A stretch of DNA of 64,000 nucleotides from positions 1 to 64,000 of the forward strand of contig NZ_CAMLHO010000013.1 of assembly GCF_946479765.1 (NCBI RefSeq), written 5' to 3'. Position 1 is the stretch's first letter. Each line of letters opens with the position of its first letter. This DNA comes from an uncultured Aliivibrio sp. (GTDB lineage Bacteria > Pseudomonadota > Gammaproteobacteria > Enterobacterales > Vibrionaceae). The notes beneath the pieces are model-generated. The model was not told the origin of the DNA. It made no database searches and was given only the letters and a program-made list of their open reading frames with translations. The translations under genes were made by a program, and so were the position numbers. This document shows positions 23,706 through 61,733 of the stretch, piece by piece.

Positions 23706-23739
23706 AAAGAAATCGATCAGAGAGATCGTTTCAAGAAGA

Positions 23740-23827
23740 CCATTAGTTCCCTACGTCAGTACTAACTGAATCAGGTTCAACGGGTTCGCTATTGCGATCT
23801 CAGCCTATTGGCTCCCCGACTAATGGC
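23740..23827 (-). ncRNA. TPP riboswitch (THI element)
   Basis: The reverse complement contains the hallmark blocks of the thiamine pyrophosphate aptamer: CGGGGAGCC, GGCTGAGAT, ACCCGTTGAACCTGAT and GACGTAGGGAAC. The ends GCCATTAGTC and AACTAATGG pair to form P1. It lies 110 bases upstream of thiD on the same strand and should sense TPP to shut off the salvage and transport cluster. Confidence 0.95.
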
Positions 23828-23890
23828 GTCATACTATCACTAATCGATTTGTAAATAGTATGCTTTTTATGAGAATGATAACTGTATTAG

Positions 23891-60229: not shown

Positions 60230-60727
60230 ATGAAAAAACTCATCCTCTCAATATGCTTATTATTACTTTCAACGTCCACCTTTGCTGCTGAGTCCTGCTC
60301 TGGTAAGACTATTGTTGGTCAAATTGAAACTATTCATATAAAAGAATTAAATACCAATTATGAAGCTCGAATTGATACAGGAGCCGCTACCACCTCAATC
60401 CATGCAACTAACATAGAAATCGTTGGGCAAGAAGATGAAAGCGATGATATGCGTGATCACTTAGGTGATACGGTAAAATTTACCACTTACAATGAAGAAA
60501 ACGTAGCCATGCAACACACTGGACGTATTATTAAAGTCAGTAAAATTCGCAATGCACAAGGTGTTGAACGTCGCTATGCGGTAAGAATGCATTTTGAGTT
60601 CAATGGCGAAGATAAGAAAGTGGCCGTAAATCTTCGTGACAGAAGTAAACTAGATTACAAATTATTGATTGGCCGTAACTGGTTAGAAGGCGATTATTTA
60701 GTCGACGTAGATAAAAATAGCGAATAA
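60230..60727 (+). CDS. Periplasmic retropepsin-like protein (PF05618-type)
   Basis: A 165-residue exported protein with a signal peptide ending STFAA. The single domain shows the retropepsin-like motif ARIDTGAATTSIHA and the late conserved segment YKLLIGRNWLEG. It is a shorter paralogue of the lipoprotein at 51762-52442, lacking its linker. Protease activity is inferred only. It is followed by the tRNA operon promoter. Confidence 0.82.
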   Translation: MKKLILSICLLLLSTSTFAAESCSGKTIVGQIETIHIKELNTNYEARIDTGAATTSIHATNIEIVGQEDESDDMRDHLGDTVKFTTYNEENVAMQHTGRIIKVSKIRNAQGVERRYAVRMHFEFNGEDKKVAVNLRDRSKLDYKLLIGRNWLEGDYLVDVDKNSE

Positions 60728-60770
60728 CGTTTATTTTTTAAACGCTTAACGTATTTTTTAGAAAAAAGAC

Positions 60771-60799
60771 TTTACATAAAAATCAAAGATGACTATTAT
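60771..60799 (+). promoter_or_regulatory. Promoter of the tRNA-Ser/tRNA-Asp operon
   Basis: TTTACA (60771-60776) and TATTAT (60794-60799) are separated by exactly 17 bases, ten bases before the tRNA-Ser 5' end. The GC-containing discriminator (TCTCGGC) fits a growth-rate-controlled stable-RNA promoter. Confidence 0.7.
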
Positions 60800-60809
60800 T
60801 CTCGGCATT

Positions 60810-60900
60810 GGAGGGATGGCTGAGTGGTCGAAAGCACCGGTCTTGAAAACCGGCAACCGTTAATAGCGGTTCTAGGGTTCAAATCCCTATCCCTCCACCA
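60810..60900 (+). tRNA. tRNA-Ser (anticodon TGA)
   Basis: Acceptor GGAGGGA pairs with TCCCTCC, discriminator A and encoded CCA at 60898-60900. The anticodon loop CTTGAAA gives UGA. A long variable arm (AACCG...CGGTT) and the T-arm (TAGGG TTCAAAT CCCTA) are intact, typical of class II tRNA-Ser. Confidence 0.96.
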
Positions 60901-60938
60901 CTTTTCAAAATTCAGATAGAGTCTGGGTTTTAAAAATT

Positions 60939-61015
60939 GGAGCGGTAGTTCAGTTGGTTAGAATACCGGCCTGTCACGCCGGGGGTCGCGGGTTCGAGTC
61001 CCGTCCGCTCCGCCA
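60939..61015 (+). tRNA. tRNA-Asp (anticodon GTC)
   Basis: A 77-base gene. Acceptor GGAGCGG pairs with CCGCTCC, discriminator G, CCA encoded. Anticodon stem CCGGC/GCCGG holds loop CTGTCAC (GUC). The T-arm GCGGG TTCGAGT CCCGT is intact. It is probably cotranscribed with tRNA-Ser from the promoter at 60771. Confidence 0.96.
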
Positions 61016-61024
61016 ACATCAACG

Positions 61025-61054
61025 AAGCCTTGTCAGAAATGATGAGGCTTTTTT
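61025..61054 (+). terminator. Terminator of the tRNA operon
   Basis: AAGCCTTGTCA (61025-61035) pairs with TGATGAGGCTT (61040-61050), using two G-U pairs, around a four-base loop and followed by a T-run. Confidence 0.88.
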
Positions 61055-61118
61055 GTATCTGTTGGATATGGATACACACGCTTTTTAAAATTCAGATAAA
61101 GTCTGGGTTTTAAAAATT

Positions 61119-61227
61119 GGAGCGGTAGTTTAGTTGGTTAGACTCTTTATTGGGGAGCTTAGCGGCCTGTCATGCCGGGGGACGTGCTGCTCTCAAGGTG
61201 AGATAGAAAGTCCCGTCCGCTCCGCCA
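61119..61227 (+). pseudogene. tRNA-Asp-derived copy with split insertion (copy 2)
   Basis: A 109-base relative of the neighbouring tRNA-Asp. The 5' 24 bases, an anticodon-like stem-loop (CGGC CTGTCAT GCCG) and the 3' end with a perfect acceptor stem and CCA are kept. Extra sequence lies before the anticodon stem (CTCTTTATTGGGGAGC) and after it (GCTCTCAAGGTGAGATAGAAAG). The two inserts can pair with each other, extending the anticodon arm into a long hairpin. The 5' strand of the T-arm is gone, so it cannot be a standard tRNA. It may be a pseudogene or a tRNA-derived small RNA. Confidence 0.72.
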
Positions 61228-61235
61228 ATACAACG

Positions 61236-61265
61236 AAGCCTTGTCAGAAATGACGAGGCTTTTTT
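61236..61265 (+). terminator. Terminator after tRNA-Asp-derived copy 2
   Basis: AAGCCTTGTCA pairs with TGACGAGGCTT, followed by a T-run. Compared with the unit 1 terminator one T has become C, turning a G-U pair into G-C, so the helix is kept or strengthened. Confidence 0.82.
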
Positions 61266-61329
61266 GTATCTGTTGAATATAGAAATAACCACTTTTGAAA
61301 ATTCAAATAATGTCTGGGTTTTACAAATT

Positions 61330-61437
61330 GAAGCGGTAGTTCAGTTGGTTAGACCTTCTATTGAGGAGCTTAGCGACCTGACACGCCGGGGGCGTGCAGC
61401 TCTCAAGGTGAGATAGGAAGTCCCGTCCGCTCCGCCA
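61330..61437 (+). pseudogene. tRNA-Asp-derived copy with split insertion (copy 3)
   Basis: A 108-base relative with the same two-part insertion as copy 2 (CCTTCTATTGAGGAGCT before and AGCTCTCAAGGTGAGATAGG after the anticodon region). The arms differ from copy 2 at several bases yet still pair. The acceptor has one mismatch (GAAGCGG against CCGCTCC), the anticodon loop reads CTGACAC, and the anticodon stem has an A-C mismatch. No terminator hairpin follows. It is more decayed than copy 2. Confidence 0.7.
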
Positions 61438-61496
61438 AAACAACAAGATAAAAACCAAATTGTTTTGCCTCGTCAAATACATACTAAAAGTTGTTG

Positions 61497-61733
61497 TTAA
61501 TAAAACTCGATAGCAATACCAATTTCTTGAGATAACAACTCTAATTGTTCATGGTTGTCTAGTTTAATCGACCATTTCATGCCACTACCAACAGCACTAA
61601 TTACATTTGCACCACCAATCAAAGTAAGTGCATCTATCTCAGCCTGTACTGTCGTTCTAGAGGTATTATTTAATCGAACAACCAACTCATGTTGGTTGGC
61701 AATAATATCGCCTTCTGAGAAAGTGATTTTCAT
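61497..61733 (-). CDS. Small DUF3389-like protein
   Basis: A 78-residue soluble protein starting MKITFSEGDIIANQHELVVRL. The pattern resembles the Vibrionaceae DUF3389 family, but I recall that family only in outline, so the name is tentative. No signal peptide or membrane helix is visible. It is oriented towards the tRNA-Asp-derived repeats. The 234 bases upstream to the desaturase gene show no recognisable element. Confidence 0.65.
   Translation of the reverse strand: MKITFSEGDIIANQHELVVRLNNTSRTTVQAEIDALTLIGGANVISAVGSGMKWSIKLDNHEQLELLSQEIGIAIEFY

Follow-up and report, generated by a model that had tools for sequence, protein, structure and literature searches.

The RtT elements (RF00391; rttR, tpr) of the Escherichia coli tyrT operon are repeated in tandem within a tRNA operon, downstream of one of its tRNA genes. 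They follow tRNA-Tyr and carry tRNA 3' ends, and RtT RNA has been linked to the stringent response. RNAs derived from the spacers or fragments of tRNA transcripts also have roles as sponges. Small RNAs of this kind, described as external spacers, tRNA halves and tRFs, are released from tRNA operon transcripts (PMC11294920). In Bacillus cereus, tRNA-Other is described as a tRNA-like, non-translational RNA that may act within a larger regulatory RNA; it comes from one locus, situated at a genomic island, and is reported to be backed by deletion and RACE experiments, and it shows that a bacterial pseudo-tRNA can matter (PMC3399842).

Here we analyze tandem copies of tRNA-Asp found in the window, that is, the whole 64,000-nt stretch of Aliivibrio DNA studied (Table 1), and in related genomes. 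Like RtT, these copies are tandem repeats behind a tRNA gene in a tRNA operon. Unlike RtT, however, each unit contains a nearly complete tRNA that carries two inserts and in most cases includes an intrinsic-terminator-like hairpin, and the parent is tRNA-Asp rather than tRNA-Tyr. The RtT model yielded no match at the Rfam threshold in the window or in ten related loci, nor at an E-value of 5 in 60900-61500; in the MG1655 control, it yielded four matches, three of them spaced 178 bp behind tyrV and the fourth between tyrV and tyrT. In contrast to tRNA-Other, the copies form multi-copy arrays behind tRNA-Asp in gammaproteobacteria, and they are known here from sequence alone. They share with the spacer and fragment RNAs a proposed source, tRNA operon transcripts, but those RNAs are spacers or pieces of real tRNAs, whereas the copies are separate and independently conserved. 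The copies may act in a mode similar to RtT or tRNA-Other, as parallels rather than as demonstrated members of either.

Table 1. Features of the tRNA-Ser/tRNA-Asp array in the window
Feature	Positions	Strand	Basis
Intact tRNA-Ser (TGA), array head	60810..60900	+	ARAGORN, Rfam
Intact tRNA-Asp (GTC), parent of the copies	60939..61015	+	ARAGORN, Rfam
Intrinsic-terminator-like hairpin behind tRNA-Asp	61024..61051	+	terminator scan
Duplicated tRNA-Ser/tRNA-Asp spacer preceding copy 1	61077..61118	+	direct repeat D2
tRNA-Asp-like copy 1, 109 nt, anticodon loop CTGTCAT	61119..61227	+	sequence comparison
Copy 1, 5' insert (outer arm 61141-61150)	61141..61163	+	
Copy 1, 3' insert (outer arm 61203-61212), substitutes for most of the T arm	61179..61212	+	
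Intrinsic-terminator-like hairpin behind copy 1	61235..61262	+	terminator scan
tRNA-Asp-like copy 2, 108 nt, acceptor position G2 changed to A, anticodon loop CTGACAC	61330..61437	+	
Copy 2, 5' insert (outer arm 61352-61361)	61352..61374	+	
Copy 2, 3' insert (outer arm 61413-61422)	61390..61422	+	

An earlier note on this DNA had described two tRNA-Asp-derived copies beside an intact tRNA-Asp, and this description holds: the copies are 108-109 nt long, and copy 2 is 90% identical to copy 1 across query bases 3-109. Both carry a 23-nt insert between the D arm and the anticodon arm and a 33-34-nt insert 3' of the anticodon arm, where it replaces the greater part of the T arm. The units are spaced 211 bp (171-211 bp is common in other arrays), and a duplicate of the tRNA-Ser/tRNA-Asp spacer precedes each copy; therefore, the duplicated unit comprises the spacer, the tRNA, and the terminator. 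In the region 60700-61500, two terminator-like hairpins were found compared with 1.0 +/- 1.0 in shuffled sequences, and none was listed behind copy 2. Two promoter matches were found in the same region, against 0.9 from shuffles, one ahead of tRNA-Ser and the other (9/12) ahead of copy 1, while the scan of an rrn array found none. On these scans, a promoter of the copies' own is unsupported. The folding energies of the two copies are unremarkable (z = -0.94 and -0.28).

The genome of the window also contains a third, partial copy at a contig end (G000:C49:20896-20960; L047:1397-1461), about 1.1 kb from a same-strand tRNA-Ser, where the array is cut by the assembly. Elsewhere in the window, Rfam identifies a TPP riboswitch on the minus strand (23731-23828, RF00059, 76.4 bits).

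To follow the copies beyond the window, copy 1 was searched against 61 genomes, and 329 genomes of the family were searched with a covariance model derived from 52 copies of Aliivibrio. Elongated copies are present in 12 of 14 Aliivibrio genomes (all but G004 and G009), in at least 20 of the 52 listed Photobacterium genomes, and in at least seven genomes of another genus (coded g12), although most g12 genomes had only 77-nt tRNA-Asp matches among the matches listed. A partial copy was seen in G016 of genus g4. Named genomes matching the pattern include A. fischeri, A. sifiae, A. finisterrensis and other Aliivibrio, as well as P. profundum and P. indicum. Among 394 genomes of the order, three from outside the family passed an E-value of 1e-12, namely G411 and G476 from a second family (f2) and G489 from a third (f6). 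A pattern spanning the border between the D arm and the 5' insert matched in 9 of 11 f2 genomes, at up to 12 sites per genome, with one backwards match across all 11 genomes as the control. Copies could be read in eight of the nine pattern-positive f2 genomes and in G489; in G037, the anchor used for reading them gave only tRNA-Asp. The f2 and f6 copies have the same architecture as those of Aliivibrio with different insert sequences, and insert sequences differ strongly between genera as well. Hence the copies are a real family, broader than the earlier note supposed, and judging from these sequences it appears to span three or more gammaproteobacterial families.

A class-wide pattern search was discarded as evidence, because it matched only 9 of 369 genomes (the window's own genome and eight with one mismatch), compared with 19 genomes having backwards control matches; a locus fetched from one of the eight one-mismatch genomes (L218) contained no copy. 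Two Photobacterium genomes carry 134-nt copies whose anticodon arm is about 30 bases longer (L113:627-760, L121:400-533, and L121:777-910), and a truncated relative of these was found at L136:304-391.

The arrays have one of two layouts, [23S-5S]-tRNA-Asp-hairpin-(copy-hairpin)n or tRNA-Ser-tRNA-Asp-hairpin-(copy-hairpin)n, and the corresponding rrn and Ser-Asp subtypes remain distinct inside one genome. The parent tRNA-Asp often closes an rRNA operon. Across seven near-complete genomes, 48 of 51 copies are found at most 1.5 kb downstream of an intact same-strand tRNA-Asp, and an array is carried by 26 of the 51 tRNA-Asp genes, so the copies do not occupy unrelated sites as those of a dispersed mobile element would. 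Two of the three exceptions belong to an array behind a 5S gene (L076) that is broken by a transposase-like ORF pair; the third, a weak match of 121 nt, lies about 3 kb away from an array. At some other loci, no tRNA-Asp is visible because of an assembly gap or end. Copy number is variable: arrays hold one to four copies, with six pattern sites in one f2 array, and the end copies are decayed or truncated. A hairpin and a T run between units can be read directly from the sequence; the terminator scan of an rrn array missed this visible hairpin, and "terminator" there denotes a sequence reading.

Several arrays are interrupted or displaced. The ORFs in L076 (1685-2913; 132 and 277 aa) lie between two copies behind an rRNA operon without a called tRNA-Asp, and by eye the pair looks like an IS3-type transposase. 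In three Aliivibrio genomes (G003, G007, and G008), the D loop of a copy is interrupted by about 160 bp whose ends form near-perfect inverted repeats (L066:2350-2512, also L063 and L069), the rest of the copy being near the consensus; a short ORF lies within the inserted DNA (38 aa in L063). An orphan copy at L065:1390-1565 follows a displaced 3' end of tRNA-Ser, downstream of a 344-aa reading frame open at the locus start, and resembles the distal junction of a genomic island.

The copies have lost several features of a tRNA. ARAGORN called neither window copy, and neither reached the Rfam threshold, while the parent tRNA-Asp scored 70.5 bits (RF00005). As the earlier note had stated, the 5' strand of the T stem is replaced in both, leaving them without the T arm of a functional tRNA. 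It had also taken the acceptor stem and CCA as kept; in the window, copy 1 has 7/7 and copy 2 has 6/7 acceptor pairs and both end in CCA, but the acceptor stem is broken in 26 of 52 Aliivibrio copies, in which the 3' strand is changed (mostly to TTAACGTA), with pairing in only 54% of cells. The copies of one Photobacterium group end in CACTTCACAT where the CCA end would stand. The anticodon loop varies among copies (CTGACAC, CAGTCAC, CTATCAC). The copies retain the D loop of tRNA-Asp and an anticodon stem that is close to normal. Given these losses, the copies should not work as elongator tRNAs; as far as can be judged from their features, they are tRNA-derived and probably unfit for translation, as expected of a regulatory pseudo-tRNA. 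Some sequences retain more of the parent. Two hybrids have only one insert (L133:538-629 and L135:170-258), and some f2 copies have an intact T arm and an extended variable arm, two of these T-arm-keeping copies being called "tRNA-???" by ARAGORN. Both kinds look like intermediates or recombinants.

The inserts flank the anticodon arm and are able to pair with each other, as had been claimed, and this ability is retained across species. In the window, the outer arms are paired at 9 of 10 positions in each copy (GACTCTTTAT/ATAGAAAGTC and GACCTTCTAT/ATAGGAAGTC, either with one C-A mismatch and one G-U), in agreement with the 7 of 8 counted before. In a structure alignment that kept 52 of 68 Aliivibrio copies, the outer helix is paired in 97.7% of cells, and two inner helices that can be drawn score alike (96.2% and 96.5%). 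Maintenance of the pairing by compensatory change, as the earlier note had suggested, is not supported, however. The covariance-model alignment of homologous copies that had been proposed beforehand as a check gave no covariation signal in Aliivibrio, as no measure exceeded shuffles in the 52 copies, and changes in the outer helix are either one-sided (A-U to G-U, C-G to U-G) or pair-breaking. The structure is better than versions slid by 1-3 columns (97% compared with 33-56% paired) because the arms are conserved and complementary. Duplex energies of cognate and non-cognate arms did not differ, with p = 0.33 for 12 types and p = 0.36 for 17 types, the latter including at least one T-arm-keeping copy whose 3' part is no insert. 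Across divergent types, arms in fixed register are 79% paired, compared with 42-56% when slid; with the 3' arms permuted, pairing is 80% against 79% for cognate arms (p = 0.96; 70 distinct pairs from 139 copies). Therefore, the arms are conserved rather than co-varying, and on the duplex-energy and permutation tests we reject long-range pairing as a conserved feature of the whole family.

Nor is the long anticodon-arm hairpin envisaged earlier the favored fold of most copies. In partition function calculations, only 15 of the 52 copies have a mean outer-helix probability above 0.5, and 34 of 52 have at least three expected local pairs within the 5' insert; for the window, the mean pair probability of the long hairpin is about 0 in copy 1 and 0.35 in copy 2. 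In these models a local fold seems at least as likely as the long hairpin. As a feature of the whole family, the local 5' hairpin is a tendency only (nine types; for mononucleotide shuffles, Stouffer z = -1.6; for dinucleotide shuffles, -1.4).

The inserts of Aliivibrio copies are 2.5- to 8-fold less divergent between genomes than the adjacent spacers. Over all aligned units, the between-genome p-distances for the spacer, the 5' insert, and the 3' insert are 0.39, 0.107, and 0.05 in the Ser-Asp subtype, where the 3' insert is the least divergent segment, and 0.357, 0.085, and 0.141 in the rrn subtype, in a comparison that involves few genomes and spacers of partly different descent. The contrast is sharper in a second analysis based on per-genome consensus sequences with ten rows removed. 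There, variable columns comprise 5/34 of the 3' insert and 43/60 of the spacer (Fisher p = 1e-7), and in the other consensus comparison 3/33 and 22/38 (Fisher p = 1.6e-5), the tests treating columns as independent and ignoring shared ancestry. The tRNA-derived parts also lie below the spacer (0.068-0.197), with the exception of the rrn-subtype acceptor 3' strand (0.306); therefore, low divergence belongs to most of the copy and not to the inserts alone. That inserts diverge less than spacers argues against plain decay, which the earlier note had also considered unlikely.

We see about an even chance that the arrays constitute a conserved family of tRNA-Asp-derived non-coding RNAs with a putative function, perhaps produced by read-through from tRNA/rRNA operons. 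Such a family would have originated by tandem duplication of a unit comprised of the spacer, tRNA-Asp, and the terminator, the duplicated tRNA having gained one insert at the junction of the D arm and the anticodon arm and another in the T arm. The pseudo-tRNA genes stand in tandem behind tRNA-Asp, at the ends of rRNA operons or after a tRNA-Ser/tRNA-Asp pair. Polymerase reading through the preceding terminator would yield RNAs of about 105-110 nt, and their amount would track the output of the rRNA/tRNA operon. The 3' insert, whose conserved sequence in Aliivibrio is CTYTCAAGGT..ATAGAAAGTC, could be a surface at which another RNA or a tRNA-handling protein makes contact, and an RNA with this surface could be a sponge or a decoy. 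A more specific version, which we put forward tentatively, is that of trans-acting tRNA-Asp-derived RNAs in at least three families, co-produced with rRNA/tRNA operons, so that their dose would report or tune operon output; mutual or local folding of the inserts would then allow a two-state RNA.

The main rival is a non-functional satellite, in which tandem duplicates of tRNA-Asp and its terminator change in number by unequal crossing over and are homogenized by recombination between rRNA operons. The paired inserts would have come from replication template switching on the anticodon palindrome, and the likeness between species would reflect recent spread or transfer. This is a serious possibility, if somewhat short of probable. 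The variable size of the arrays, their truncated or decayed end copies, and their interruption by the transposase-like ORF pair and by the ~160-bp inverted-repeat insert are all consistent with it, as are hybrids containing intact tRNA-Asp halves (the two one-insert hybrids and L162:1119-1215), the absence of covariation, and the many relatives without copies. Against it, exchange within a genome alone would not lower divergence between species, yet inserts show severalfold less divergence than the spacer that belongs to their own unit, and within a single genome the Ser-Asp and rrn subtypes have remained separate; transfer of copy-limited tracts between species could possibly account for the former. 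It is mainly the low divergence of the inserts, which within-genome recombination alone would not produce between species, that leads us to prefer a functional RNA family.

The remaining explanations are less probable. The unit could be a repeated terminator cassette, selected to stop very strong transcription of rRNA/tRNA operons, with the tRNA-like part a passenger crippled so that no surplus tRNA-Asp arises. The operons that precede the arrays are normally highly expressed, units normally end in a hairpin and a T run, and the rrn-subtype terminator is invariant (0/29 columns, per-genome consensus). Still, we consider this improbable, since it leaves the conservation of the inserts unexplained, the Ser-Asp terminator is more divergent than the 3' insert (p-distances 0.214 and 0.038; consensus, ten rows dropped), and the last window copy has no listed terminator. 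A decoy aimed at toxins or phage enzymes that act on tRNA-Asp would fit multiple copies beside the real gene that keep its D loop and a near-normal anticodon stem, but the anticodon loops altered in many copies should spoil an anticodon decoy, which makes this reading very unlikely. Finally, the earlier note had raised the possibility of a small hairpin element that duplicated. Although a hairpin-like 5' insert recurs in several genera, a mobile hairpin inserting beside tRNA genes fits so poorly that we give it almost no weight: it is largely refuted by the location of the copies, the insert is seen only within tRNA-Asp copies, and viral contigs (searched with one exact pattern of the Aliivibrio type), plasmids, and phage records gave no match. 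By the same location data and mobile-sequence searches, a mobile element, phage, or plasmid origin is unsupported.

In full-text literature searches, no description of these arrays was found among the matches listed. In P. profundum, 150 of 460 putative small RNAs are reported in repeated regions, and four tRNAs not predicted bioinformatically are reported between PBPRA1278 and PBPRA1279 (PMC3505737). The expression analyses, as described in PMC3505737 and PMC5511505, leave out multi-mapping reads or tRNA/rRNA reads, and exclusion of this kind would hide products of the copies. The tRNA-Asp-derived arrays, present in many marine bacteria, may represent a family of undescribed small RNAs; the window copies were left unnamed by ARAGORN and Rfam as run here. 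If real as RNA, the copies would form a family of multi-copy RNA genes linked to rRNA/tRNA operons, in bacteria as tractable as Aliivibrio fischeri and Photobacterium profundum. The family would also show a tRNA gene being turned into something else by duplication and insertion, and living species may still carry intermediates of that change.
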